NCBI GenBank assembly: GCA_963969395.1
Contig: OZ017795.1
Span: forward strand, 37,553,063-37,617,062
Direction of reading: 5' to 3'
Length of the DNA stretch: 64,000 bases
DNA from: Pseudoscleropodium purum
Taxonomy: Eukaryota; Streptophyta; Bryopsida; Hypnales; Brachytheciaceae
In this document: positions 8,936 to 52,021 of the stretch, in pieces
Layout: the number at the start of each line of letters is the position of its first letter
Numbering within the stretch: position 1 is the first letter of the stretch
Made by a program: the position numbers and the translations under genes
Notes under the pieces: model-generated
What the model saw: the letters and a program-made list of their open reading frames with translations, nothing else
What the model was told of the DNA's origin: nothing
Databases searched by the model: none

Positions 8936-11900
8936 AATGTTAAAGAAAGTTAACTTAAAATTTAAATCAAGCTTGAGCTTAAAGTGGAAGCAATTTGTTT
9001 AAAATCAAGTAAACTTTATATAAAATTTTAAAAAATTATCTTCAAATTAAAATTAATTAAATAAAGGATAAATTTTAAAATATATTACACACTAAATAAA
9101 AGTAAAAAAACGTTGGATCCAAACTTCATCACCTCATGACCAAAATTTTCAACAACTTGGGATCCAAACTTCATGATGATAGGACCGATTTCTTGTGCAA
9201 ACAGATTTTGCACATTATACCAGTTGTGAGCACATGCTTCATGCCTTGAGTTCAATACACAAAATTATTATCTTTTCATTAATTGTTTAATATATATGCA
9301 TTGATTATAAAAGGTTATGTATGTGTTTTTATATAAAAGGTTATAACTTGTTATGCATGTGTTTTTATATTAATATGGAATGACATTTAACTTTGGTGTC
9401 ATATATCCTTAAAATTTCATTTTTAGAATGTGCAATGTATTTCAAAGACAAACTGTATTCTCTAAGTTTAGATAACTACCTCCATTTTAGCTCTAAACTT
9501 ACAAAATATTTCTATTTTAGAAGTACTAATGAAATATCATAATGGTAACAATTTATAAATGTGTACACCCACTCATTTATGGAATAATTGGGAGTCAAAT
9601 TGAATGCATTATGTCTACAAATACAGTTTGCACATCATGCATGTTCTAAACACATGCCTGAATGTACAAAAATACATAATTTTGCATTTTATTGTATTTT
9701 TATAATGAATTTTTTTCACTTATAATATACCATCATTTTAATAGAAACTTATCATAATGGACCATATAAGTAGCCTTTTTAAAAATCTTATTTTGTACCC
9801 ATAATATACAAATTTTATACAATTACTATGATTTGAATTGAAATACTCTAAGTTTATTTAGAGAGTAACTATCTATTATCAAAGTGGGTCCACAAATCTA
9901 TACTACTACACCAATTATTTGAATAACTCTAAAACACAATAACTATTTATTTCAAGCTATAATTTTTTATATGATGGCAAATTTTACCAATGTTGAAGAT
10001 ATTATACTATTGATGCAGTAGAATGTCCATATACATATTTCATGAAAATGTTCATTTTGCATAAATACATATAGTCAATTTAAAACAATTAAAGTGTCTC
10101 ACAATTCAAATGATTGGTAGAATAATGTACATTTGAGATGTACATATATTCTAGCAATTAATATGAAACTAATGTAAAGTCTCACATCAAGTATTTGACT
10201 TCCCAATAATAGCAATAATTGATATAACTCACACAGTAGCTCACTTTTTAAGCCAAGTATTTGGCACTTTTACTTATTATAGCTTAAGCTCACTTTTATT
10301 TTCCTTTGGTTGACTCACAATCATTTTGCAATCTATGCTTTGCAATACAACTAGTAGCCAATAGTACAACAAAATTGTATTGGATAGTGTAGAAACCATT
10401 GTTTCTATTCAAAGCACAAGGTAAAATTGGAGGCCTCAATTGCAATAGTGAGGATTCCACATTGACATTTCTCTTGCACACTTCAAATTGAGGACCACAT
10501 TCGGGTGATTTCTTCCTTAAATTTGTATATGTTTATTTTTCAATGGTACACTATGAACTATACTTGTGATTTTAGTGGGTTGTTCTTGCCTCACTCCGTC
10601 TTTGCTATGGTCACTCTATACTTTTGTTTAGCAATTCATTTTTTTATATTTGTATCAGAGAAAGTCTAAAATTTCATATTAAAATTTTGAAAATTAAAAA
10701 TTCCAATGTAAAGCCTATTAGGAATTTTTGAACCGATAAAGTACCATCAATTCACAAAATTGTCATTGAATGTAAATACTACCAAGTATATGTACATAAC
10801 TTAGCCATTTTTGTTTTCAAGCAACTATACCACAAGAATTCTTGAGTAAGTTTGAGAATACTTGAGTAAAATAAAATATTGGTTAATCTTCCAATTTTGC
10901 AAAGATTGGTTAGCATGTTGTACATGCATGACATCATCCCACCTATAAAATACAATCTCACATTGTTTCCTTTAATATATCCTAGCTTGCCTTGTTTAAC
11001 AATGTCATACATGGTGCCACCACTAGACATATGCTTTTTGACTTTACAAGTACTTTTTGAGCAAGACACCTATTTTTGAGTTATACCACAACTGGAAGGC
11101 ACTTCTTGAATTTGAAAACTCTCGAATGAATTTCCCATTCAAAACACAATCCTTTGAAAACACTTATGTGAAAAAATAAGTAGAATAAAAACCTTTAAAA
11201 AACACTAAAACTAAAATTTATCATTTAAAGATTATCAACTTAAAGAAAATAAATTATTTTAAAAATTACAAATATTGAATCTACAATTAATTTTAAAAGG
11301 AATTTTAATTATTGGTTTCAAATTTTTATTGAACATTATTGGATATTGTAATAGTAATTTCAATTGTATAGATATGATCCATAGATCATGTTTCACAACT
11401 TTGTTTGAAAGTCATTATTAAATCATTCTTCTAAATAGCATTATTTATTCAAAAATCTATTTTCATAGTTTTAAAAGTTTAGACTATTCTTTGGTTTTTT
11501 TTTTTAAGGTTTTAAATATTGTAGACATTTATTTTTATAAATGATATTCTAATTCAAACATATAACTAATATTGAAGAAAAGTGATTAGACTTCAACTAT
11601 TTTATAGAAAAGTCTTCATTACTTTATGAGGAATGCTTGAAATTCCTACTATTATGTAAATGTGTTTGGATTGTTGAAAAAAAAAATAGGAAAATTTACT
11701 TTACAAAGAATAAACTTTAAGAGAATTCTATAGCTTAAGGTTGCATGACAATTTTCTACACCAAGGGGCATTCCTCACTTTTTTAAATGAAGAAAAAACA
11801 AAAGAGGTAGATAAGCCTATTGTAAATATATTGGTTGCCTTGCCCACATGAGAGGAATGAACATTTTTAGTTTATTTCCTCATATGGACAAATATAAAAG

Positions 11901-26101: not shown

Positions 26102-28918
26102 TCATGCATTATCACGGCCACTTATATTCACACTAGAGGACGATGTCAAGCGTGCAAAAATACGCGACAAGGTACTGCCCGAGGACCGAGCTTGCTGCCA
26201 ATCAGTGAACACGTCGTTGCCTAAAATAACGAGCAAGATAGATAGGAAGAAAATGAGAAGTAAAAGCACAGATCCCAGCCATGAGCCACTTCTGACAGGC
26301 ACAACTGGCGTGATGCGTGCACTAGAATCTCCTGATACAGACAATATGGCTTCCCCCGTTGGGGAAAACTCCATGGATGTGACAAAGATCATATGTGCAC
26401 TCTTCAACTTCTGACATACTGATAAGGTGACTGCATCAATAACTGCGATGTCTCCCTCGTTGCTTCCAATGGCAAGAAACCTACAAAAGTGGCAGGACGG
26501 TCACAAAGCAGCATATCAGGTTAGCATTCTATATGAGTCCTTTCAAGACTTCTACGTACTGCAACTTCAAACTGGAGAGACAACATTTCTAATCAAAAGG
26601 GTCAATCCCTTGATAATGCAACGAATGAGAACGAACAGATCTAAACTGAAAGTATCTTACATTAGCAAGAAAAATCACACCTAGGAGTATTCTAAAAACA
26701 ACTTAGGTAAGTCACAATTGTTTGCCAGGACTCTGTGCACCTAAGTTTCTAGAATACCTTGGGTTCTCTACAACCGGTATTGTCAGTACTCATAAGGTTT
26801 GGAACTGCACAGGTAAGAAAATAAGAACCCACCTTCCGTCTCGAGAAATCGAAAAAGCTGAAATTGGATCTTCTTGCACCTTCCGCGAATTCACCTGCTT
26901 CCAACTGACGGTATCAAATGCAGACACGAAGCCCATTCCTCGTTTCCGCACAGCTGCATACAGCAAGGGCTTGTTGCTATCTCGAGAGAATCTCACAAAG
27001 CCAATGCCTTCGCCTGAAAGTGAAGAAACACAACTTCCCGATGCAACATCCCAAATTCGACAAGCACTGCCATCTGATGTCGAGGCCACAAATGCACCGT
27101 CTACGCTAAAATCCAGATCCTTAATTGACTTATGAGCTTCAGGCTTATCAAGCAGCACCTGTACAGAACAATAATCAGTCAGCCCCAAATTCCACATTAA
27201 GGTAGTAACATTAGGTAGGTAACCCTTTTGATTGGAGTCCCAATCCTGTGGCATGAAAATCACCCAATTACAATGCAAGCGTTCATCCAAACATGTGCCG
27301 CAAATTTTCGCTTCCATATCTATAGTAGTTGAAACAAAGCTTCAAAGTAACATAATGTACCAATGGAAAGAAGGAATCGCACGTTACATATCTGAAGAAT
27401 AGAAAATGTTATGAAAGTTACTATGATTGACTATTAGCCTGGGGCACTTAGGTGTTCAATTCCATCATAATCAAAGATGCTTCCACGTGATACATTATAG
27501 ATACAATACTTCGAGGCAGTCTACACTTGCAATTGTGATCTTACTACTTCAAACTTCAACAATTCATGTCCAAATGATAGCTTTGGAATCTTTCCAAAGC
27601 TAGGGGCAAGACCCAAAAAATACAATTCGCTCTAGTAATAGAAACCACTCCAAACAGTTGAAAGCCATGGGGACGATTTCCTTACCTTAAACATCTCGAA
27701 TGAAGAGAATGAAAAAAAAATGAAAAATTACAACCCTAATCCCCCAAAACATGAGAAAAGCTCCCAAAATTCATCAGAAAAATTCGCACATCTACCTTGC
27801 TCATCATTCAACCCTAAAATTCCATGTCCATCTAACAAAGGAAACCACATAAAATGAAAAGATTGAAAATTAGAACGAAACCCTAATTCACGAAAGGAAA
27901 CAGACAAATTCGTAGTTAAAATATCGTGCTTCTCCACCTTGAACGTCCCCATCCGATCACACGACATTCAACCACAAAATCCATGTCCATGCAGGAACAT
28001 AGACCACATACAATGGGAACAATTAAAACCCCAAAATGCAAACCCTAATTCAAAAAAAAAATCTCTAATTCATCGTCAAAATTGCGCTCTACCTTGAACA
28101 TTCCCCGCTCGAGCAAACGACATTCAACCACAAATTCATGTCCATACAGCAACCAAGACTACACAGAATGCAAAAAATGCAAACCCTAGTAAATGAAGAA
28201 ATCTAAAATTCATCATCAAAATTCGCACTTCTACTTTAGACGTTCCCCACTCGATCACACGACATTCGACCATAAAATCCATATCCATGCAACAGCACAG
28301 ACCACACAAAACGCAGAGAAGTCAAACCCCAGAAATGCAAACCCTAATTCACGAAAAAATTCTAAACTTGTCTCCAATTCATCGATCAAACTTGGCGCTT
28401 CTTTCTACCTTGAACGTCCCCCACTCGATCACCCGCAAGTGTCCATCATCTCCCCCCGCCGCGAGCCGCGTCCCGTCGGGACTGAACACCACGCAGTTCT
28501 GCTCGCCCACCCCTTGCAAGGCCGGAATCTGTCGCTCCGCAGCCTCGACTCTCCCCTTCCCCTTCTTTTCGCCGTCCTCTCGCCGCACTTGGAACAGGCG
28601 GCAATCGTTTTCCAAGCTGCACACCACGGCCTCTCCGGAGGGATGCGCGGCCAGGCGGTACGGCGGGTCGTCGCCCGTGGCGAACGTGTCCACAGCGTCC
28701 GTCAGCTCTGTGGACTGGAAATCGTACTCCGCCAACAACAAGCTGTTGGGAACGCCATTGCGCTGGTTGCCGCCCCCGCCGGCTAACAAAACCAAACCCT
28801 TGCAAGGCTCTTCTTCTTTACCATCGCCAGGGGAGGAGCTACCCTCCACCCACGCCCCGGCGAACAAAGGCTGGCCAAATTTTTTCGAGCACAGCAGGTA
28901 GCGCAGGGCCCTGCTCAT
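26102..28918 (-). CDS. SEC12-like / PHF1-like WD40 protein, tail-anchored in the ER
   Basis: Three exons: 28918-28409, 27158-26833, 26480-26102. The phases (0, then 2) join to 404 residues, close to the roughly 390-400 usual for plant SEC12-like proteins (STL/PHF1). The family activates the GTPase SAR1 by nucleotide exchange at the ER, starting COPII coats; the PHF1 branch helps phosphate transporters leave the ER. Residues 47-58 (GGGGNQRNGVPN) match the K-loop that SEC12 uses on SAR1. WD-type blades follow: FSPDGTRLAAGGDDGHLRV at about 145, then HKSIKDLDFSVDGAFVAST at about 179, and MEFSPTGEAILSVSGDSS at about 315. A single membrane segment (WLGSVLLLLIFFLSILLVIL) lies at about 346-365, followed by some 40 residues expected in the lumen, without an HDEL-type end. 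I cannot separate the SEC12 from the PHF1 branch by eye. Intron 1 is 1250 bases and repetitive (see separate entry). Confidence 0.9.
27789..28437 (-). repeat. Tandem repeat that copies the exon 1 splice donor into intron 1
   Basis: The end of exon 1 plus its donor (plus strand CTACCTTGAACGTCCCC at about 28406) recurs in degenerate form within intron 1: CTACTTTAGACGTTCCCC (28231), CTACCTTGAACATTCCCC (28089), CCACCTTGAACGTCCCC (27934) and a weak CTACCTTGCTCATC (27792). Each is followed by GACATTC(A/G)ACCA-like sequence, a TCCATGTCCATGCA-like block and GCAAACCCTAATTC. The unit length varies from 141 to 175 bases. Confidence 0.8.
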
Positions 28919-29160
28919 GATCTCAATTACTCCCGCAAGTCGCACAAGCAAGCTGAAGTAGTAACAGGACACAATCGAAGGAAAGATCGTGCAGCTGCGA
29001 CACAAGTTAGCCAGACAGATCTGCGAGAGAGTGGAAGTAATAAGCTTCCTGATGACTCCAGTCTTCGTCTCCCTCCTCGTCCTTCTAAACCCAAACCCAG
29101 AAAGTTACTTTTAAAGCTGACTTTTGATGGTAAAGTTTGTGCACATGGCGCACTTAACAT
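28919..29160 (-). promoter_or_regulatory. 5' leader and promoter side of the SEC12-like gene
   Basis: The sequence upstream of the ATG at 28918 remains relatively GC-rich to about 29.1 kb, then drops. No convincing TATA box was found. The frame stays open upstream of the ATG for 29 codons, but the chosen ATG is the one followed by the family-like N-terminus. Confidence 0.35.
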
Positions 29161-30317: not shown

Positions 30318-30365
30318 CAGGGTTGCTAAAGTATGAGTAGGGAGCGATGAGCGTTGAGCAATGAG
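30318..30365 (+). repeat. Left terminal inverted repeat of the large element
   Basis: Begins CAGGGTTGCTAAAGTATGAG and ends CGTTGAGCAATGAG. Compared with the reverse complement of the right end it has 13 mismatches in 48, of which 10 are transitions. Confidence 0.7.
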
Positions 30366-31081
30366 TGTTGAGCATTGAGAAATTTTTGAAAGAATTTGTA
30401 AAAAACCTATAATTTTTTATCATAAGGATTTTTAGTTCATAGTTTATTATAAAAGGATAAAGCTATAGGTGCACTCAAAGAAGATGAATAGAGATGAATA
30501 GAGATGAATGGAGTTGGATGAATTATTATTTAGTTGACTTTATTGAATGAAATACATTTGTTTATGACATTGGATGAAAATAAATTTGGATGATTAATGG
30601 ATGATTGGGACTATAAAATCATTTGTTTTAGATAAATGTCACTTATCAAATATCTTAAATCTAAAGTTTAGGTGGATTTTTTTAAACTAAGGACCTACAT
30701 TTATATGGTATTTTAAAACCATTTTAGGGTGAAGGTACCACTTTTAATTAAAATTCACAATTCTTTTTAAGCATTTTTGAAGTTCACCAAATTTATTTTT
30801 ATGCTAACACCAACATTTACTATTTTTAATTATACGTTTTCATCAAAGAAAAGTACCATGTTGCCAATAGAAAGAAATAGATTCAATTCACAAATTTTTT
30901 TAATAGTTGACAACAATAACCATTATCTCTTGAAATAAATGTTCTTTTAATTAGCATTCTAAAGATCACCAAAATGCAAAATAACTTAAGAATATGATAA
31001 AGTATAAGAATGTAGTAGCCTTTTTAATCTTACTACATGACATTAGAAAATCAAGTAACAACAATAATCTTTAGAATAAGA

Positions 31082-34000
31082 TCAATTCGACCCAATGCCA
31101 CATATGGGAAAAGAATGATCACAAGCTTCACTATTATCACTATATGTAAGCCTTGGTGTGTCAACATCTGCTTTAAGGTCTAAAAACTTCTTGACAACAA
31201 TATTGTATGAATGATGCTTGGCAACAGAAATGGGTGATGGAGCCTCTACCATAGCTGTCGCTAGAATCTCGATATAACATGGTAAACTCTTTGGACTAGA
31301 AGAAGGCGAGAACACCAAATGCTTGAGAAGATTGCCTCTACAAAATGCAATGATTGAATAATTAGAAAATTTGAATAAATTAAAAGACATTGCACAATAA
31401 AAGAAAATAAACACATGTCTAAAAGCATCAACAAACTTACTTACAGCAACGTCTTTTTCGAGGCCTTGTAGAAGATTTGACAATGTCTTTGTCATCAGAA
31501 TCATCCAACACTATAAGTAAAGGCTACTTAATTTAAATAGTGGTAGTAGAAGTAGAAAGGATGATCAAAGGTTGAAGAAGACCTTCAAAAATCTCACTAT
31601 TGCTCTCGAAGGCCACAAATGATGTCCAATGTTGCAGCATGCATGGATAGAGGCCTTTGTTCATTGAATGCAATGTCATTAGTTGCACCAAATATGTTAC
31701 ATACAATGTAAAAAATACATGATTTGAATAATAAAAAGTAATGACTAATGAAAGGTACATGTAGATGCATAATAATCCAATACCACATCACCAGGTTTTG
31801 AAGATGCCTCAATTAGTAGTTGTACAAATAGAGGGTCTTTCTTACGAACACCTCTCCATAGAATTGTACCATTCATGAGGTATCAATACCTTTCCAATAG
31901 TACATTACACGCCTTCAAATTCCAAAAATTCAATTCCAAAATGGAAAAAGAAAGTTGCAGCTATAGTTAGCAACATGTACAACATTGTAAAGAAAAAAAC
32001 TGCAATGAATTTTGACTGCAATTTTTTTTACCACGCTTTGGTATGGTATAATTATGAGATAAAAATCAAAACATTTAAAAACTTGTAAAATGTAATTTTT
32101 TTTTATGTGAATGAAAGAGAAAGTTAATCACATACCTTAGTCCAAAATGAGGCCTTACAAAGCCAAGTCTCTTAGGTCATTGTATTGAAACTCAGAGCGG
32201 GAAATCTGAAACCTTCCTTAGAAGTCTCACTTGAGTTCCACCACCTAAGCCAACAAACCTTGTAGTTTGGTTGAACTTGGCATGTAGAAATCCTTTGAAG
32301 TTTCTCCAAGGATATCTCGGGCTTCTCATTGACTCTATAATATAAGTTTATCTGAAATTTGAAAAGACAAAAGTATAGTAAAAATCAAGTCCAAAAATAA
32401 TCATGTAAATAGAAAAAGAAAGTAGGCATAATAATATACCTCTTCTAGAAATCCAATGCCGTTTTTTGGATTTGCAATGGTGGATTGTTTATCAAACTTC
32501 GTTTGAAATCCTTTGATAGCTGCAGTGGTGGTTTGAGTCATGGCCTCATGAACACCCTTTGGAATTTGTTCTTCCAACTATGTCTTCTTATAGTAAGTTT
32601 GCATAGCCACATCTAAAACAGTAGCAATTTCTTGTTGTACATGAAAACATGAACCTAAAATCAGTATAAAATAAATTTTACAGATTACAACAAATGAATG
32701 GAAAAGTTTTACAAACAAAAGATATTCACCTCATGAAGGAATTGTATGAAGATAGGAGATGTCAATGGATACCAAGCACCTGAAAGCTTTTTGGTTTCAC
32801 ATTTCTTGTAATCCTTATCACTTAGAAGCCCCTTGAACTCTTCCAATTGCAAGTTGCCATAGGTACTCATTCTGTGCAATTGTTTAACCAAGTTGCTTTT
32901 GACATGGGAGTGCTCCGTAGACCTACAAATATCAATGAAAATAGAATGTAAGATGAATGAATGTGAAAGCATTGAATATTACAATACAATTGAAGAAGCG
33001 GTAAAATAAAATAAATTTTGATTCAACAAACATTAGAACTCACCAATAACCAATTGATGTCATTCATAGCCTCCAATAGAATGCATGTACGGCCTTCGGA
33101 CACCAATAACATATAATCAACAAGAAAATGCCATTTGCGATCATGCCGATGCATTCTGTGGATGTAAACATACCAAATTGCCAATCTGTGATTACCATCC
33201 CATACAAAAAACATGTGATTTGACAAATGTAAGATAGTTGGTTGAGAACTCAACCAACACTCAAATTGGTCATTCTCGTGTATCCAATCTTCATCCCATG
33301 TCTCTACAATCTCAAGTGTCACTAACTTGGAAGCTCTCTTGTCCTTTGTTGTTGACACATAGAGTATACGATCACCTTGTCGATATCCATGAACAAACTC
33401 AGCCTCCAATCATTTCACTTGACTTTGGAGGAGAGGATGGACGAATGGAAGCCCAATCATTCTGCACAAAGAAATATCAAATCAAGATCCTAGACCACCA
33501 CCATTGAAGAGCATGTTGTTGATGACCGCATTGGAGTCCAATTTCTAACTATTTCGCACATCCTCTTCCACCTCATCTACCATTCGCCCTTCAAAAACTA
33601 GATCAAAATTTTGAATATCAACGATGCTGTCAACCTACAATCAATAGAAAATTGAACCCAAGATATAGTTAACATAAAGAAGTCATGGAAAATGAAAACG
33701 AATACAACAACTATAATACAAAAACAACCATAGAAATTATCATACAAACATAAATAGAAATGCATCTAACTTGAAGATTGCCAACCACAAGTTGAGAATC
33801 TTCATTGGTGACAAGTTCCAACCACTCCATTTGTGGAAGCTTTCCATCGATGTCTATGAAGCTCTGTTTTGAAAAAACAAGAAGAATTATTTTTTACATC
33901 TTTATTAAAAATCAGCCTAAGTAGTGACCTCGTTAACAAGGCTACATTTTCAACCCAAAGTAAGCATCAGAAAAATACATTTTCAACCTAAGACTTAAGT

Positions 34001-35145
34001 TTAGATTCTCTAAGTGAGTCTTTAGAAAACCTGAAAAAGTGACCTTGTTAACAAGGTCAGTTTTTCTAATGTATTTCAACAGTGTTAAGAAAAAACAATG
34101 AAGCCTAAAATCAAAACTAAACTGTGTGAGTGATCTCTTAAAAATCCGAAGAAAGAGACCTCGTTAATGAGGTCACTTTTTCTAATCTAATTCTAACAAG
34201 GCCACTTTTTCCAATGTAATTCAGTACTCCGTAGCAAAAATTCGGAAGCCTAAATTTGAAATTGAAACCATATGAGTGATCTCTAAAAAATCTGAAAAAA
34301 TGACCTCGTTAACGAGGTTAGTTTTTCCAATGTATTTCAACAGTGAAAAGACAAAGCATTGAAGCCTAAAGTCAAAACTGAATTTTCTTAATAATCTCTA
34401 AAAACCCAAAAAAGTGACTTTGTTAACGAGGTCATATTTTGCAATCTATTTCAATAGTCTTCTAAAAAAAAGCAAAGCCTAAAATCTAAACTAAACAATC
34501 TTTGTCATCTCCCTAAACCCTGAAAAAGTGATCTCATTAATGAAGTCACATTTTGCAATCTATTTCAACAGTCTACAGGAAAAAAGCAAAGCTGAAAATC
34601 AAAACTAAACTATCTTTGTCATCTCCGAAAACCCTAAAAAAGTGACCTCGTTAATGAGGTCACATTTTCCAATCTATTTTAGTAGTCTTTACAAAAAAAA
34701 GCAAAACGTAAATCCTAAATTGAAATTGTCTTAGTGATTTTAGAAATCTCGAAAAAGCGACCTTATTAACAAAGTCACATTTTCCAGTCTAATTCAACAA
34801 TCCATAGAAAGAATTTCAAATTATACATAAAAATTAGAAATCATCTTAAAAAGACTATATTGAACTTAAGAATGTAATCTTGTTAACAAGGTCAAGTTTC
34901 AAACCCTAGAACTGCAATCTTATGAAAATCATACATCAAAACCGAAACCGTTTGAGTGATCTCCTAAACCCTTGAAAAAATGACCTCATCAATGACGTCA
35001 ATTTAGAACCTGAAAAAGGAGTGTTAAAAAATGGCACCTTTTGAGGATCTCTAGGAACTTGAACTTCCATTACATCAACGCCTTCAATGCTGTCAAGGAC
35101 ACCCTCCCCGCCGTTGCCGTGTGCCTCTCCATCCTTGTGTAGCAT
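31082..35145 (-). pseudogene. ParB-type domain plus DNA methyltransferase-like fusion, multi-exon, decayed
   Basis: Exons still read across GT-AG introns: 35145-35038 (MLHKDGEAHGNG...), 33863-33771 (SFIDIDGKLPQMEWLEL...), about 33634-33530, about 33450-33051, 32922-32730, about 32650-32440, 32351-32136, about 31880-31759, about 31690-31533 and 31504-31082. ParB-like signs: QLVVGNLQVDSI, then FEGRMVDEVEEDVRNS, then FFVWDGNHRLAIW (about 33216-33178) and DINWSTEHSHVKSNLVKQL. Methyltransferase-like signs: YNDLRDLAL/GLILD just before an intron at 32136, where a DPPY motif would begin; LLIEASSKPGDVVLDYYAST, like motif I; and WTSFVAFESNSEIFEGLLQPL, like the motif after it. This order (ParB, DPPY, motif I) is that of ParB-fused methyltransferases of phages and other mobile elements. 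Damage: stops at about 33545 and 33485, frameshifts near 33400 and 32205, a stop at about 32580, and no visible PPY exon. Family assignment is by motif only. Confidence 0.55.
33925..35000. repeat. Ten-copy array of a 20-bp palindrome with 114-bp period, inside an intron
   Basis: Consensus TGACCTCGTTAACGAGGTCA. Copies start at 33925, 34040, 34156, 34301, 34415, 34529, 34643, 34758, 34875 and 34981; steps are 115, 116, 145, 114, 114, 114, 115, 117 and 106. The copy at 34040 (TGACCTTGTTAACAAGGTCA) is a perfect palindrome. Each is preceded by a CTAAA..C(C/T)GAAAAAG-like run and followed by TTTTCCAATCTATTTCAACA-like sequence, so the whole unit repeats. The array fills most of the intron between the first two exons (35038 and 33863) of the methyltransferase-like pseudogene. 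Most changes within the palindromes are C to T or G to A. Confidence 0.9.
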
Positions 35146-35559
35146 GCCACTCTATAAATTCATTGCGAAAGCAACCCTAAGCCAAAACACAACAATGGAA
35201 AAGGAAGAGGACTACACCAAAGCAAACCGAAGACCAGCCCATGGAGTTGGTCTTCGGTCTCAAAAAAACCAAAAAAACAAGGAAGAGATTGGTAGATATA
35301 GGCCAAAAGAATCTTTCAAATAAAATCTACAATTTCCAAGATTTTCAGTTCAAATTTTGGGGGCATATAGATTAACCTTACAAGTAACCCAATTTTTTTT
35401 CAGAGTTTTTGAAGTTACGAGGAATTTTGCTAAAATTGGCAAAACTTTAAAAAAATATTTGGGCAAGATTTGGCCGAAAAATCACCTGATTCTAAAGATT
35501 TCAAAGAAGATTCCAAGATGTTGAATTAGTTTTTAGGTTGTAAAACATTCAAAACCACT

Positions 35560-36300
35560 TCATTTTTTGCATACTATATACTGTTGGAATCGTCTTCTCG
35601 AAATACACGAAATGAAGTTTGGTATCAAATTTACCTCTAACAAAAAATATTTAACACATACAATCAACTCCTCACAGTTTAATGGCTCTAGTTCTAGCAA
35701 TGAATATATGAACTTATTAATTCTGCGTTGATCACTAGGGACATGTTCTTCTCTAGTATACTCGGTTGGCATACGTCTACTTCAGTTTCATCAATAGTGT
35801 CAAGCTTAGCAATATCCATTCCTTCACTATTTTGTGTCAAACTATACTTGTGTTCAAAAGGTACATCTTCAACCCCATTATCCTCATACGACAAGGTCCG
35901 AACAATGCTATTAATCTCACCACCATTGGAATTCTACAAGCATCTAAACATCTTCAATTTCTCTAGCTGTTTCTTACTAGAGAAGCGAAGTCCTGCCTTA
36001 CATCTCTTTCTATGAGAACCCTTTGGCATCCCTCTAACCAAAAAAATCCAAGAAAGCAAACTCGACTTTCTCATTGGCAACACTCCAAACTCTTCGATAT
36101 ATAGCACTCTTCAAGTCTAATGAATGTATTCTCATCCAATTCATTATAGTTTCTCGAAACAAAACATCTACTGACCATAATATAAACGGTCAATAAGATC
36201 ATCCGTTCTTCGCTCAACTGCTTCATAATCACTCTTACATTTGAATATACTACTATTACATTGGAAGAGGCCTCCATTTGGGGCCTTCTCATCACCCTTA
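35560..36300 (-). pseudogene. Third ORF remnant of the large element, unknown function
   Basis: From an ATG at 36029 the minus strand reads MPKGSHRKRCKAGLRFSSKK and QLEKLKMFRCL, then after a stop SYEDNGVEDVPFEHKYSLTQ with an acidic run, and after a frame change REEHVPSDQRRINKFIYSLL. Upstream, 36300-36040 gives further coding-like pieces (SDYEAVERRTDDLIDRLYYG; SAIYRRVWSVANEKVEFAFL). The basic start and acidic middle suggest a small DNA- or protein-binding accessory protein, which is only inference. It lies between the two main genes on the same strand as the methyltransferase-like gene and may be one or two genes, or extra exons of that gene. Confidence 0.35.
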
Positions 36301-36562
36301 AATGTGAATGTGGTGCTATCTACAATTCATAATTCAAAAGATCGGGTACTAGTAGCTAAATTAAAAAAATCAATTGTTGGCTGTGCATAAAATCCTTAAA
36401 TATATAAGGCTTTCAATTCAAATTTCAAATTATCAAAATCCTACATAAAAAGCTCTAATCCATGTCCACTACCTCTTTGTCTTTTACCTATTATCACTAG
36501 AAACCTTTGGGATTCTACCAATAGTTCCAAGTAAGCAATGACATTCTATAGGAATTTGTAGA

Positions 36563-39500
36563 TTGTATACACATGCCAATATAGCCATGGCACTTGTTCG
36601 TAGTGACGAGTCCAACATTCCAATTTCTTTTCCTTGTAGTGATGCTAGTAGTGCATGGGTATCTGCTTTGATTCTTAATGTACACTTCAATTTAGAGTTG
36701 TCGTCCCTATGGGTAGAAGAAGAACTATTTGATTCTCAGGGACTTCGAGTCACATCTACAGTCATGCTATCGAAGATCAAAATAGACTTTGGAGATGGTT
36801 GGAGGCTTTCTCCAGATAAGTATCATGCTTTTGGCACTCCTAAATTCACTAGATCAGTGACAACCAAAATTTTCACACCTAGGTCTGCTACTTCTATTAT
36901 TCAAATGTCTTGGGAACTCGTGTGAAAGTAGATTCTTCGAGTCATAGCCATATTAATCTTACAGAGTCTTATGACAACGATACTACTATTTTCATTGATG
37001 CAAGTCACAAGCTACCTACCATATCTGAAAAGTGTACACACTATTTGAAGTACAGACGACATTCAACATGATAGCATGTTGCATCTTTCAGTTCATGAGA
37101 GGGCATCCAAGTTTGTGAGCATCGTAGAATGCCTTAAAGATATGCAAAGTCATCCGCGCACACGAAATGAATTGAAATTCTTAAACCTCAGTACACATCA
37201 TTGTAAATCTGTATGACATCTTCGTCAATCATTTAATGGAGACATTCTTTTTAAATTACCTCCTCTTCTTTCTTCGACATCTCCTTTCGAAAGTCGACCC
37301 AATTCAACTTCTTCATCTTCTGTAGGTCGACAATTAGAAGACATGGATCGTAAACTTGATGGCCATAATCAGACACACACACACTACAAACATTGTAAAT
37401 GACTTCGAATTGAAGTTCCGCTACTCCTTGTGTGTGGGCCACCTAGTTTGCAAGAACAAAGCTTGCCCTAGACTACGCCAAAGTGGTAGCAAAAACGAGA
37501 CAGAGTGGGAGGGGTCATCACCTAGCATCTTCCTTGTGGGAGAGTAGTCTCCATCAAAGTCTACTCTTGTGTGTCAAATATGCAAACAAGTTCCTTCCTG
37601 CAAAGCTTTATGCCTTTGTTGCATGTATAGGATCTTGAACTCTTTAGGCCTTCCCAGAGCTTGTATCCATGTTGGAATTCATGATCATCTTGTGGATAGA
37701 GGCATCTATCGTGATTCTGTTGATTGAACAACATCTTTGATTGGTGAAGGAGTATCAAGGATGCCTACAGTAACAAATTCGGCCATACAACTTGTTGCTA
37801 GTAAGGAATTCTTCGCATTTGAATTGTTTGGAGAGGAGCTTAGAGAAGAGCTCAGAGAGGAGGGACTACAAAGTAACCAAAAGCCACTTCACGGAGAGGC
37901 CCTTGAGGCAGTTATGAATAAATTTCAAATATTCAGTTCACTAAGTATTCAAAATACCATCTCTAATTTCCGTCATAGTAAAAGTAGAGGACCCATTGAC
38001 AACATTATCTCATTGAAAATGAAGATTATTTTTTCATATATTCAAGATAGTGTATTTCTAGACCAAGGTAAAGATAAGGTTTACCTTTTTAAGATGTCTG
38101 AGGAAGGCCCGGGAAGTGGAGTGGATTTGGTAAGCCAAATGCAACTGGGGGGAGACTTGCAAAATTCTTGGTGCATGTTTGATCATGTAAAGAGGATGAA
38201 AGGATGGACGTCAATGGCTGCCCACGTATACGACCTTGAATTTTGTCGGGTTCAAACTATTTGCATTTGCGACATGATGAGCAAGGATGCTCAATCCCAA
38301 GAACAGATGTGGAGATTCCTTAACTCAATCATAATGCGCTATGGGGTTTCTTCTCCACATTTCAAGGGTTTTATGGCTGATAATGCGATGGCAAACTGGC
38401 ATGTTGTTTGGGTGGTATATGGAAGTGGCAACAAGCAAGAGCCCATACAAAATTGAAAGCGCTCTTGTCTACTTCATTGGACAACTTCACTAAACAAACA
38501 TATAGAAAAACTCATTCAACCTGAATTCCAAGAAACTCACAAGAAGCTTTGCAAACAATACAAAGATGCAAAGACAATGGCAAAAACAGAAGAAAGATAC
38601 CTTGGAATTAAGGGTTGGTGGCTTTTTTCAAGGGCTGCATCAGAGGATTCTCTTCAACAATTGGATGATTGGTTGAGTTTTTGGTACTTTCGATATTGAT
38701 AGTGGGGTGGATTCTTAGAGTTGGTAAGATACATACTTCCTTCCATTTCAATTTTTCTACTTAATTGTTCAACTTCTATTCATAGAGTAGTTATTCTATT
38801 GTCTTAAATGTATATATGGTTTCTATTTCTATTTAATTGTTTTCATTCATATCTACTGAATTCATACAAATCTAATTTGAACATATAAAATTTTTAGTAC
38901 TTAAATGACACTTTTAGAATCAAGGGAGCCTTATATTGTTACTTTAAATTGTTGTTACTTGTGCAAAACTTGAACTTAGAAGAACTGGCCAAAATGCCTT
39001 CATGCAACTTGGCTGAGATAGTTCACAACAAATGGTTGAAAATGTCTGGGAAGAGGGGAACATGCTTGTACGTCACCACTACTGATGACATGATGTAGGC
39101 TATACAAAAATCGACTAATTATTGGGCATACCTCCAAGGTTATGCATTTGAAACTGGTCCCCACTTAAATGAACTTTGCCTATGAGTTGCAAGACAAACC
39201 AGAAATTCAACAAACTTTGCTAAGGCTATTGCCAAACTACCAAATGCTTATCTATTTACCACAAGAGTCCCCCACTTGGAAGGAGAAGAAGTATTTGGTT
39301 CTTCAAAGTGTAAACTAAACCTACCACCTAGGTCAGATAGTGATTCTCACCGCCACGATACAATGTACTTTTTTGCACCCAAAGTTCAGACTCTGTCAAC
39401 TAGAGCGCACACTGAAGTAGGCGCATCAATGCCAACACCAACACCAATGTCGACAGAGGAAGGACAACCAAGCACACTATGTCCCTATGCTACCAAGGTA

Positions 39501-40388
39501 CTTGAAACAAACTACAACCCTACTTTGTGGCACATTGCTAGATGCAAAAAGAAAAGAAAGACTTGTCACGGAGTTCAAGTTGGGATGAAGAAGAAATGTG
39601 GGGCCAAGATAAACAAGTCAAGTAAGAGTGGAACACTAGCACCTATCTACAATGGCCACATGACAAAATATGGAACCAAGGCCATCATCAACTTTGATTT
39701 CTAGTTTTGTGCAAATGACCTTATGCGTTGTGTAGGAGGCTCTAAAATCAAGTGGGTTCACGACTAGCCTCCTTTGCCAAATGTGTGGCCTATTGCATGT
39801 GGAACACATCTCACCAAATTACAGATCTTTTCTCTGAAAGAAGCAGGATTTCAATTGCAAACTGAGGAGCTAGGCAAAGTAATGTTCCATCTCTTTAACG
39901 AAGAGTGTATAGATGGAGGTGTATCTTTCCTTCACTCAAAACAATCAAATAGCAATTTGAAACCATCTAACGATGATATGCACCCGACAAAGCGATTGGG
40001 TAAGACCATATGACATAATCCTAATGCACCTACAATTGACCACTGCAACAAATGGGAGACAACACGAAACCTAAAAGCTATCATTCAATCTATAGTTGTT
40101 ATTCCATATCCTGGCTATGGTAGAGTGATAACTCTATTGTCTAGCATCTTTCCCAACCAAAAGGTCTATCGCGTCACAATTTCAAACTTTCCTGCTTGTA
40201 CCTGCGAAGACTTCATCACCATGAGTACAACTGCACTTGGTAGTAGGAAATATTGGATGAACTGCAAGCATTTGTATTATGTCTTTAGATTCATTTGCAA
40301 GGCAAATTCTGAGGACAATAAGTACATACATGCACTAAGTTTGAGCTTTGATGAAGTAAAGCTACTTCTTGTAGGTAGCAATCTATAA
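36563..40388 (+). pseudogene. Transposase pseudogene with SWIM zinc finger
   Basis: Coding blocks in order: 36563-36925 (ending FGDGWRLSPDKYHAFG and on), a Cys-rich stretch at about 37400-37650 (CVGHLVCKNKACPRL; VCQICKQVPSCKALCLCCMY), the largest open block 37737-38456, its continuation after one stop to about 38695, then after a likely intron (donor GTTGGTAAGAT at 38721, acceptor side near 38979) blocks to 40388. The core has FDHVKRMKGWTSMAAHVYD, CICDMMSKD and GFMADNAMANW, which I read as a DDE/RNase H-type transposase. At 40197-40271 ACTCEDF ... WMNCKHLYYVF gives CxC...CxH, a SWIM zinc finger, typical of Mutator-like transposases. At least seven stops interrupt it, at 36925, 38455 and 39118 among others. 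A KDZ-type transposase is the main alternative. Confidence 0.75.
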
Positions 40389-41186
40389 GATGTTGTATAT
40401 TCATCTTGTAGTATTAGGTTGAAAAACTACTTTTGTTTAGAAGTGGATACAAAATGGCCCATTGAAGTAGTTGACACATACACTAAATCCTAATTAGTTT
40501 AAGGTGGAAATAGTTTTTAGCAAGTTAAAGACAACTAAAATGATTTGTAAAACCATAAACATAAAAAGAATACATAAGAAAAGGCTAAATTTAGCCAACA
40601 AAACATTATAGAAAGAAATGTTACAATTCTACAAATGAATCTTGAAAGTACTACTAAATTCCAAGGAGAATTTATCATATAATGAAACAACATTGTACAA
40701 CTGATTGTTACATATTTCTAAATGAACCTTCTAAGAGTTCCTTAGTTATAAAGAACACAACCAACGTCAGAATAGTTAACAAAGTTTTAAAGTCAACAAT
40801 GCAAACTTCAAAAAATTTGTAAATTATTATTTTTACAGGGAAAAAAAATTCATTTTTTTAAGACATGTTACAAATATGTAAAGAAAGTTTTGGGAGGATG
40901 GATGATGAATGGATGACATGAATGAAGTCCATTCATTCATCAAGTCTATGGTTGAAAAATCATCTACTTGTGGGAAATGCTAGTCCTTCATTCATGCCCA
41001 TTCATACAACATTTGAATATAAAATTCATTATTTTCAATAAAAAAATTGCAATTTCTTGGATATATTTTTGTATTTTTGGTTTCTGACATTTCTATATTT
41101 AGATCTAACAACCCTATTTATTACTCTGACATGTCTATTTTTAGTAAAATTCCTTGCAGTGAGCGCTCAAATCTAATTGCTCATCA

Positions 41187-41234
41187 CTCAATGTTCAACA
41201 CTCATTGCTCCCCGTTTACACTCTAGCACCGTTG
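41187..41234 (-). repeat. Right terminal inverted repeat of the large element
   Basis: Reversed, it begins CAACGGTGCTAGAGTGTAAA and ends TGTTGAACATTGAG. It matches the left end at 35 of 48 bases without gaps. Flanks (TTTCTGAC left, CTTTGAGT right) do not form a target duplication. Confidence 0.7.
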
Positions 41235-49079: not shown

Positions 49080-50752
49080 AAGACTGTTTCCTTACGAATT
49101 CCCCTCGGAAACCGAGTCTCCAGTAGCATCCGTCGAAACGGAGAAGAGCTCCCTCCAGACCGTCCGATCATCCTCCAGGAGTCCAGATCGTCGATCGGTA
49201 TGGGAACGCAATATGTTCCCAACGTTCACTATTCCGGTCTGATTTGCACGAGGGCCGGGTTTGACTTTCCGTTTAGTGTGCCGGCTTTGAATGGGCTCGC
49301 CTCCCGGGATCCGAACCTGTAAGACTGTACTGCGTTTTCCCGGTTTCTTCAAGCACAAGCTCCCTGGTGCAGTACCGACTTTTCCGGATTCCTTGTTCGA
49401 AATCTGCTCTGCAAACGACAGACTGCGCTACGGTTTTGCTTTGTTTCCTCCTTCTGAAGTTTTGCTGCGATCATTTCATTTTCCTGAGTGGCCTCCTTGA
49501 TGCTCGTGTACCACTTCAGGTTTTCCAGGTCCATTTCTTCGCTTTCTATATCCTGGGAGCATTCTTCTTTGCAATGTCCCGCGCATTCTCACTTCAGAGT
49601 AGTTTTGGATTATGCCAACCCCATCGGTTGTCGTTTCTGGTATCCTCCGTGCGCTGATGTAATTGTCCGACAAAACCTGCGTAGGTTGGAACACTCTAAA
49701 TTGCCTCTTTTTCATTTTCTTGTTCTGGTCAAATTTGTACATGTTCTTGTAAAGAAATGAAAGAAGATTTTAACGTATCCAAAAATTCGTTAGTTGAATA
49801 TTGTATGCAAACGTTAGGAGGATGCAGAGGGTTTTTGGTAGATGGTTTGAAGCCGACATTTATACAGGGTATTAGCACTTCCTCTTCTTAACCAATATCT
49901 ACTCTTAGGCTCTAGTTGCATTTTCGCCTGGCACAACTAAAGTATGTTAGCATTCCTGGTCGTGGACAATTTGAGTTACTCCTCGCTAGGTAGGGATATC
50001 CGAAATCGCCACGACTGCTGCTTAGTAGAGTTCATGGTCATATTTTTACATGTTCTTTTTTGCAAACGAAATGTGGTTTCAACATTTCAACCCTCGAAAT
50101 GAATATGTCATTTGGATGCCTTTTGCAACAGTTACAAACAGTGAATGTTTGACTGGTAGATGCTCTTAACCGTAACTTGATCAGATGTTCAGGTGGTGTA
50201 TATCCTCTGAAATCAATATGTATCTATTGTCTAAGATTGTTGGATTGCTTTGGGGTTCTAGTTCCCCTAGATTGTTTGCAATTTGAGTTAAAGTTGTGTT
50301 TCATATCGAGAATTCGGACTCATTGTTCTGAAATAGGGCATAGAACTAGATGTCAGTGCCTTCCGAGGATGCACATTCTATGTGTAGGAATTATCTATCA
50401 AGTGCCGTGTTACATGAACAGGAAACTAATGATCATCACATTGGAGAAGGTCGGTTTGGCTCGATTTAGAGACTATCTGTAAATCTAAGATTTTGAGGTT
50501 TGAGTTCTTTATGTTGAGTGTCCACATGTAGGATTGCTTGACTGGAATCAGTGACTTCGGATCATGTTCGTTCTTTGGTGACACAGAAAAGAGAGAAAGA
50601 AGGGGGTCTGAGTAACAAAAAGAGAATCATTATGGTTCGGCAACTGATCAAACTGTGCTGTTGTAATCGCTTGCAGATTCTCCTTTCTGTTTTCAAGAGG
50701 TTGTAATGAGTTGAGCAGGAAGAGGGTGCCTGTGCAACTTCTCATCGCCAGG
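49080..50752 (+). promoter_or_regulatory. 5' region of the BTB gene, probably with a non-coding exon and leader intron
   Basis: 49080-49760 is markedly GC-richer than the flanks and has short frames on both strands, none convincing. 49760-50670 is AT-richer. A good acceptor (CGCTTGCAG at about 50676) precedes the coding sequence by 76 bases, so I infer a leader exon near 49.1-49.8 kb spliced to the coding exon. No donor could be fixed and no TATA box was recognised. Confidence 0.35.
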
Positions 50753-52021
50753 ATGTGTTCTGAGGTTGCAACACAGGAGCTCTTCGAGATGTGTTCTGAG
50801 CTTCGGCAGACGGAAGAGACGGTGCGCTGTTTTGGAATTGAAGAAGGTCAAGATGTTGCAGTCCGCTTGGTATCGAACGGAGGTGAAAGCGAGCATCACA
50901 AAAAAACGCTCCTGGTGTTGAATGTGCATTCGAGTCGTTTGAGCCGATGCAGCAAATACTTCGAGACTTGCTTGAGTGAGAGGTGGAGAAAATCAAGCAC
51001 GACACCCCCTTCGCTGATTGAATTCGTCCTTGAAGTTCACGGGGATGTTCAATGCTACACGGATTGTTTCACTCGCATGTACTCCCCCTTTCTCAAGGAC
51101 TTCCGGGATGTGAAACACAGTCTGGAGCTTCTCAAAGTGGCCTCCCAGATCGAGTTTCTCGAGCTCATGGACTCCATCTCCCGGTACATCAGCGCGATCC
51201 CTTGGTCATGTGAGGATGAAATCAGGATCAGAGAGTATTCCTCTTCGCCGGATTTTCCCTGTGAACATGCCAAAGATCTTGTGGCTCGCTTGGGGTTGCA
51301 CATGACGGAAGTGGATCGGCATAATCATATGTGTGACCTGGTCCAGCAGGGCATACGCACGGCTCTTCATCCAGATGGCAACTTCAAGAACACTCGCGCT
51401 TTTTTTGAGGGTTTTTTGCAGGGCATTAAATCCGGTACATCTGCAAATGTTGCCAGAACTGTGGTTACAATAGTGAGTGACGAGACGAAGAACATGCTCA
51501 ATTCCATTGGAAAAGAATGTGAAGAGAAGGGGTTTTATCACTTGGTGCCCAAGTTTACAGAGAAGCTCTTGTCGATCTGCTGGGCGCTGAACGCTCTGCT
51601 AATCGCAGGTGTGGCCGAGGAATTAGTTCAGTACATCGTGCAGTTGGATACGTTGGCTTGCATTGTTGCGAATGTGAATTGTTTCAATGGTCCGGAAGCG
51701 TGCAAGATGGCGGCCTTCGAGTTGGCGAAGCTCATCCTTAAAATGTATGGTGAGGTGCTGGATGGAAATCTGCTCTTGAACACGCCCGAACGGACTGCAT
51801 TGTTGAAGAACTGGCATGTGGTGCTGGAGAATCACGTCTCCAGGGATAGTTATTATCAAATCACCAAAAGCTTCTTCCTCACGTTGCCTCTGGAGCAGCA
51901 GACGGAGCTCATCAAGCTGCGGAAAGACAAGTTCACGGGCTACATCGACACAAGCTCTCTCGTGACACTCTTGAAGAAGAGTTGGCCAGCCATGGAGTCG
52001 GACTTGGAGCTCTCGAATTAA
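50753..52021 (+). CDS. BTB/POZ domain protein, probable CUL3 ubiquitin-ligase adaptor
   Basis: A single exon of 422 codons. Residues about 26-150 form the BTB domain: FGIEEGQDVAVRLVSNGGES, then LLVLNVHSSRLSRCSKYF and ETCLSERW, ending with LELLKVASQIEFLELMDSI. The next part (RYISAIPWSCEDEIRI and on) and the C-terminal half, with LKNWHVVLENHV and FFLTLPLEQQTELI, match the layout of the plant BTB family that includes At1g63850 and At3g05675. Proteins of this type bind CUL3 through the BTB fold and present targets for ubiquitination; the target is unknown. The frame is open upstream, but the first ATG is at 50753. A second ATG at 50789 lies within a repeat of ATGTGTTCTGAG, so either could start translation. 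No signal peptide or membrane segment. Confidence 0.88.
   Translation: MCSEVATQELFEMCSELRQTEETVRCFGIEEGQDVAVRLVSNGGESEHHKKTLLVLNVHSSRLSRCSKYFETCLSERWRKSSTTPPSLIEFVLEVHGDVQCYTDCFTRMYSPFLKDFRDVKHSLELLKVASQIEFLELMDSISRYISAIPWSCEDEIRIREYSSSPDFPCEHAKDLVARLGLHMTEVDRHNHMCDLVQQGIRTALHPDGNFKNTRAFFEGFLQGIKSGTSANVARTVVTIVSDETKNMLNSIGKECEEKGFYHLVPKFTEKLLSICWALNALLIAGVAEELVQYIVQLDTLACIVANVNCFNGPEACKMAAFELAKLILKMYGEVLDGNLLLNTPERTALLKNWHVVLENHVSRDSYYQITKSFFLTLPLEQQTELIKLRKDKFTGYIDTSSLVTLLKKSWPAMESDLELSN

Follow-up and report, generated by a model that had tools for sequence, protein, structure and literature searches.

A 64,000-nucleotide stretch of the genome of the moss Pseudoscleropodium purum (assembly GCA_963969395.1, contig OZ017795.1, positions 37,553,063 to 37,617,062, forward strand; hereafter the window) contains a decayed DNA transposon that carries, on the strand opposite to its transposase, an intron-bearing accessory gene with a ParB/Srx-like domain and a methyltransferase-like C-terminus; palindromes stand in a row upstream of its ParB-like exon. 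On our best explanation, to which as a whole we give about an even chance, the element is a dead copy of a cut-and-paste transposon resembling Mutator-like elements (MULEs). Because of the layout, the palindrome array and the ParB fold, and by analogy with known systems, we read the protein of the accessory gene, with the scales about level, as a putative self-recognition factor of the element.

The element is delimited by terminal inverted repeats (Table 1), with a local alignment score of 49 compared with at most 40 for random pairs of 200-bp stretches (n = 4964), in a test that was not blind, the site having been supplied beforehand by the preliminary description of this DNA. That description had proposed a transposon unit with inverted repeats, a transposase on the plus strand and a broken, intron-bearing gene on the minus strand, all of which is borne out by the repeat score, the reading frames and the copies in the same genome; the length of the repeats, given there as 48 bp, is corrected here to 57 bp. 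In the plus-strand transposase frame 12 of the 887 codons are stops, including the terminal one, compared with 39–71 in the other five frames, and several of the 12 cluster in an intron-like stretch (38700-38895). The proposed SWIM-type transposase pseudogene is recognizable as a decayed frame with a CxCx19CxH motif, a pattern that occurs four times over all six frames of the window, but its match to the Pfam SWIM model is weak (E = 0.25) and Pfam gives no MULE match. Upstream of the transposase there is a second plus-strand frame (36542-37290), open over 252 amino acids in copy c17 (9705-10460) and shorter in the window, which may represent the N-terminal part of the transposase or else a third gene.

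The ParB-like exon has 34 matches in the 313-Mb assembly, the window included, the others being 72–92% identical. Ten copies were sampled with about 19 kb each, as were the upstream 3 kb of 13 diverged copies, and 10 others lie outside the sample. The transposase stands beside the gene in six of the ten copies (c15, partially, c17, c19, c21, c29 and c31), the left end of the window element recurs in seven and the right end in five (c17, c19, c21, c29 and c31), the right repeat being poorly kept in c19 and c21 (19 and 13 mismatches of 42, ungapped), with its final dozen bases legible. The four copies in which both ends can be read (c17, c19, c29 and c31) measure 12.6 kb, or 15.6 kb in the case of c29, and two of them, c19 and c29, have exact 10-bp target duplications; none was readable at the window copy, c17 or c31. 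The 57-bp repeats and these duplications agree with the MULE pattern of terminal inverted repeats and target duplications of 8–11 bp. Gene, transposase and inverted repeats recur together in this genome. The gene without a nearby transposase, which had been proposed as a refuting observation, was seen in the remaining four copies (c13, c23, c25 and c27), each of which ceases to resemble the window element before the transposase is reached. The ParB-like stretch has at least one stop in all ten copies, and the transposase blocks have stops in all six copies that possess them.

The accessory gene belongs to a large and apparently eukaryotic family of 249 hits, and its ParB-like exon is matched by all 120 relatives in tblastn comparisons. 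A fuller relative, designated L004, is encoded on a 4.7-kb contig (CADCWO010000058.1) filed in a cyanobacterial soil metagenome-assembled genome. As we read it, L004 has five GT-AG introns, and splicing its six exons yields an uninterrupted protein of 1040 amino acids. Since the sequence is apparently eukaryotic and intron-bearing, the cyanobacterial assembly looks contaminated, and we take L004 to be the eukaryotic contaminant. Its protein matches the window gene in four stretches in the same order, which confirms the order of these stretches in the window, where the exon borders are approximate and were set by eye; the case for a first exon at 35145-35038 was too weak for it to be included. 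Introns in the minus-strand gene, as originally proposed, are upheld. Because of the comparison with the L004 protein, the motif GLILD, reported at an exon end, proves to have been read in the wrong frame; in the true frame, past a stop, the sequence is ETWLCKASFW, which aligns with NWIDRAAFW of L004. The large exon of L004 contains a motif IV-like strand, ADMVLFDVPEDLP, followed by motif X (WRGAREK) and motif I (DDVILDITASTG); the corresponding motif IV stretch is lost from the window (Table 1). Near the lost stretch, window positions 31865-32047 match two or three sites in the copies of the same genome, often in inverted orientation, forming a hairpin-like repeat pair.

The ParB-type domain is supported by fold, the predicted structure of the relative P0002 finding ParB in a fold comparison, but not by the Pfam ParB profile, which had no match in the scanned window exons; FEGRMVDEVEEDV, which had been counted among its motifs, is located before the ParB-like fold and not within it. 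Across the 120 relatives, residues G190, N191, H192 and R193 (P0002 numbering) show at least 90% invariance and presumably represent the GxxR-type nucleotide-binding sequence motif of ParB/Srx proteins. Among the 25 listed families, out of 37, for these relatives the Pfam ParB profile is likewise absent, bar CB_ParB_C, a ParB C-terminal model with four weak matches (best E = 0.089). A search of PDB sequences with the ParB-like alignment returned a single row (E = 0.43), taken as chance, and phage records contained no match to P0002.

In the C-terminal part, the motif X and I exon of the window, joined to the last exon in a frame set by eye, matches PF01555, the profile of beta-class N6A/N4C methyltransferases, with E = 1.5e-6 and 28.7 bits (cut-off 26.7). 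The match covers motifs X, I and II, a motif II-like stretch being legible alongside the other two. Only these joined exons exceed the cut-off, other matches being at or below it, among them P0121 (E = 1.8e-4), the sole match of the third protein search (11 candidates) and 83% identical to the window in the part common to both, and a 293-amino-acid piece of L004 spanning two exons (2e-5, 25.1 bits, just below the cut-off). Four of the five distinct PDB sequences matched by the methyltransferase part are adenine methylases (RsrI twice, MboIIA and CcrM; E 0.0064-0.97), the fifth being named Protein C10. In IMG/VR, searches with two ParB-like alignments, the transposase frame, the L004 large exon and one palindrome confirmed nothing, and the loci found there by P0121 were rejected as relatives, L001 and L002 encoding phage-type methyltransferases and L003 an unrelated-looking frame.

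The catalytic motif IV of beta-class N6A/N4C methyltransferases has the form (D/N/S)PP(Y/F/W). Read by open tblastn over all ten copies, the family shows D-I-P-D (c13, c29), N-I-P-D (c15, c19, c25), N-I-P-N (c27, c31), N-I-L-D (c17, c21) and D-I-S-D (c23), and L004 has D-V-P-E. Position four is D or N in all ten copies, and position three is P in seven, L in two and S in one; the departure from DPPY is steady, in 11 of 11 sequences. The alignments that included phage rows (A5 and A6) placed motif IV wrongly and were set aside. The motif lacks its aromatic residue, and caution is therefore needed with regard to base methylation. The preliminary description had named profile searches without a ParB or methyltransferase hit as a refutation; its methyltransferase-like C-terminus stands by the match to PF01555 but not by a canonical motif IV, and its suggestion that the transposon marked DNA is unsupported, the window being devoid of the motif IV stretch and the family motif not being DPPY. 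These same observations make it rather doubtful that the element encoded an active DNA methyltransferase writing N6-methyladenine (6mA) or N4-methylcytosine (4mC) on its own or host DNA, despite the legible motifs X, I and II and the fact that PMC12477816 reads the ParB-methyltransferase genes of algal transposons as active enzymes.

The palindromes of the window are 22 bp long, and the only other site in the window within 7 mismatches is at 51333. Identity among the repeat units is 0.75 in the palindrome, whereas their two flanks reach 0.45 and 0.47 by ungapped counting, which lowers the flank values somewhat. At least three units are present in eight of the ten near copies, the other two (c23 and c25) breaking off first, and an array lies within 3 kb upstream in nine of the 13 diverged copies when the whole 22-mer is searched; a looser search by the inner 12 bp finds at least three units in 10 of the 13. 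In L004 a 20-bp palindrome occurs four times, at 21, 127, 234 and 343 (0, 1, 3 and 0 changes), with spacings of 106–109 bp and before a start codon at 552. The palindromes of the window and L004 share CTCG-N4-CGAG, with TTAA and GATC, respectively, at the centre; as a sign of relatedness, the match of the four-base half-site is only suggestive. Outer-arm covariation shows only a small excess, both among 160 units from all loci (0.595 vs 0.540; none of 2000 shuffles as high) and among 84 units from diverged copies (0.431 vs 0.396; 8 of 2000 shuffles); these shuffles ignore relatedness, and inner symmetry is uninformative because the inner 12 bp served to locate the units. On this sequence evidence the palindromes may be candidate ParB-like binding sites, comparable to parS. 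That they instead form a decaying minisatellite, or a replication or hairpin feature, is unlikely: tandem arrays arise easily and shuffles do not fall clearly below the window array in covariation, but the core is better conserved than the flanks, and L004 has an array in a similar place with similar spacing and a different centre.

If the accessory protein is a self-recognition factor, its ParB-like part, probably dimeric, would load on the row of palindromes in the way that ParB loads on parS. The C-terminal domain would bind S-adenosylmethionine and either methylate nearby element DNA or, given its odd motif IV, act as a non-catalytic regulator, and the likely outcome would be that the element regulates its own promoters or evades silencing by the host, in a manner similar to that in which VANC works via motif arrays. 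We put forward only tentatively, as falling short of an even chance, the more far-reaching proposal of a eukaryotic transposon with its own ParB/parS-like identity system, in which a protein of ParB fold, bearing a domain derived from a methyltransferase, would load on an array before its own gene and would mark or shield the DNA of the element, the protein and the palindrome centre changing jointly between lineages (TTAA in the window, GATC in L004). It is very unlikely that the gene is instead a captured host gene, a Pack-MULE-like passenger that plays no part in the element, for although gene capture is frequent in MULEs (excerpted text of PMC6446971) and four of the ten copies lack a nearby transposase match, the genome holds 34 matches, several copies have the same layout, and arrays accompany the gene in near copies, diverged copies and L004.

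Several observations weigh against self-recognition by a MULE-like element. No MULE transposase profile (PF10551) match was obtained at E <= 10 with the window frame or the frames of c31 and c17, all of them decayed. In the Foldseek comparison with the predicted ParB-like fold, no match was below E 0.001 and query TM-scores were 0.18-0.25. PF01555 did not match the L004 large exon alone, the last exon alone or the motif IV piece of c13; an AlphaFold prediction of the L004 methyltransferase part had a mean confidence (pLDDT) of 37.9 and no usable fold; and the absence of motif IV from the window and of its aromatic residue from L004 and all ten copies, described above, belongs here as well. As to the array, it is missing from four of the 13 diverged copies (no unit in L036, L037 and L039, one in L043), the diverged copies commonly share a core, CCTCGTTAACGAGG, with mostly asymmetric outer arms, and pair covariation in the window array was equalled in 20 of 500 and 38 of 500 shuffles. 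The start of the gene is uncertain, and the array would lie before the gene or, if there is an exon at 35145-35038, in its first intron.

Table 1. Features of the transposon in the window (positions counted from its first nucleotide)
Feature	Positions	Strand	Basis or remark
Left terminal inverted repeat	30324..30380	+	44/57 identical to right repeat
Last exon, frameshifted (VAFESNSEIFEGLLQPLI)	31550..31690	-	PF01555 E=1.5e-6 when joined with previous exon, in a frame set by eye
Exon with methyltransferase motifs X and I (MNGTILWRG...GDVVLDYYAST)	31760..31882	-	PF01555 E=0.0028, 18.1 bits, straight translation; 83% identical to P0121
Deletion point	31879..31885		About 2.2 kb including motif IV missing; blastn junctions in fuller copies c13, c19, c29
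Exon KPEISLEKLQ...WLRWWN...KASFW	32136..32354	-	39% identical to L004 over 72 amino acids
Exon ...IANPKNGIGFLEE	32438..32655	-	Resembles P0019 and L004 exon 3, by eye only
Exon STEHSHVKSNLV..., helical continuation	32730..32925	-	L004 comparison among bases
Exon with ParB/Srx-like domain (WDGNHRLAIW), in-frame stops	33050..33634	-	tblastn, L004, fold of relative P0002
Leader exon of accessory gene	33771..33863	-	Frame and borders by eye, weak; start codon perhaps near 33830
Array of 10 palindromes (GTGACCTCGTTAACGAGGTCAC-like)	33924..35001		Upstream of ParB-like exon; units 106-145 bp apart, in most cases 114-117 bp
Decayed transposase frame, MULE-like by layout	37728..40388	+	Stop counts; conserved blocks in 6/10 copies
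SWIM-type motif CxCx19CxH	40197..40271	+	Pattern search; also in copy c31
Right terminal inverted repeat	41172..41228	-	44/57 identical to left repeat

Immediately beyond the left boundary of the transposon, WD40-repeat frames (28379-29101 and 26790-27338, minus strand; Pfam WD40) belong to a gene that we take to be SEC12-like. Elsewhere in the window, a long plus-strand open frame of 457 amino acids (50648-52018), without a Pfam match, is presumably of BTB type.

Among known systems, bacterial ParB/parS shares with the accessory protein the ParB/Srx fold and the use of specific DNA sites, and VirB, from excerpts of its description, is a bacterial ParB-type anti-silencer with the same fold and with DNA sites upstream of the promoters it controls. 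To our knowledge neither has a methyltransferase part. VANC of Arabidopsis VANDAL elements, which are MULEs, is an extra transposon protein whose targets, arrays of motifs, lie in tandem repeats within non-coding parts of the element, whereas in the excerpted text it is not described as a ParB protein or methyltransferase, and its motifs are arrayed one way and are not palindromes (PMC5735166). Fungal TET/JBP transposons, according to excerpts of PMC12730594, carry a gene for a DNA-base-modifying enzyme, but this is a dioxygenase. The bdelloid N4CMT is likewise an amino-methyltransferase of bacterial type that occurs in a eukaryote and has a link to transposons, but, in the part of PMC8885841 available, it is a host gene with a chromodomain that puts 4mC at transposons in silencing. 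The closest architecture is that of the Ectocarpus Sola1 transposon Sola1-1_Ec32, with a 1104-amino-acid ParB-like and N4C/N6A methyltransferase gene on the strand opposite to the transposase, and green and red algae are cited as well (section 5 of PMC12477816); because of that work neither the architecture nor the idea is new. Sola1-1_Ec32 is, however, a 21.5-kb Sola-1 element and not a SWIM-motif MULE-like one, that section mentions no palindrome array, and the likeness considered here is one of architecture. The palindrome row beside such a gene looks new: no array was found in the literature searched, which included that section (the chapter by Iyer, 2011, and a Bostrychia paper are known from its references only), nor did the parts searched contain a MULE-like carrier or an altered motif IV for such genes.

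With these results the range of ParB-methyltransferase accessory genes, reported in algal transposons, takes in a MULE-like element as well, and a candidate target site is named. A regularly altered catalytic motif would warn against calling such genes 6mA or 4mC writers, and it becomes directly testable how a transposon distinguishes its own DNA from that of its host.

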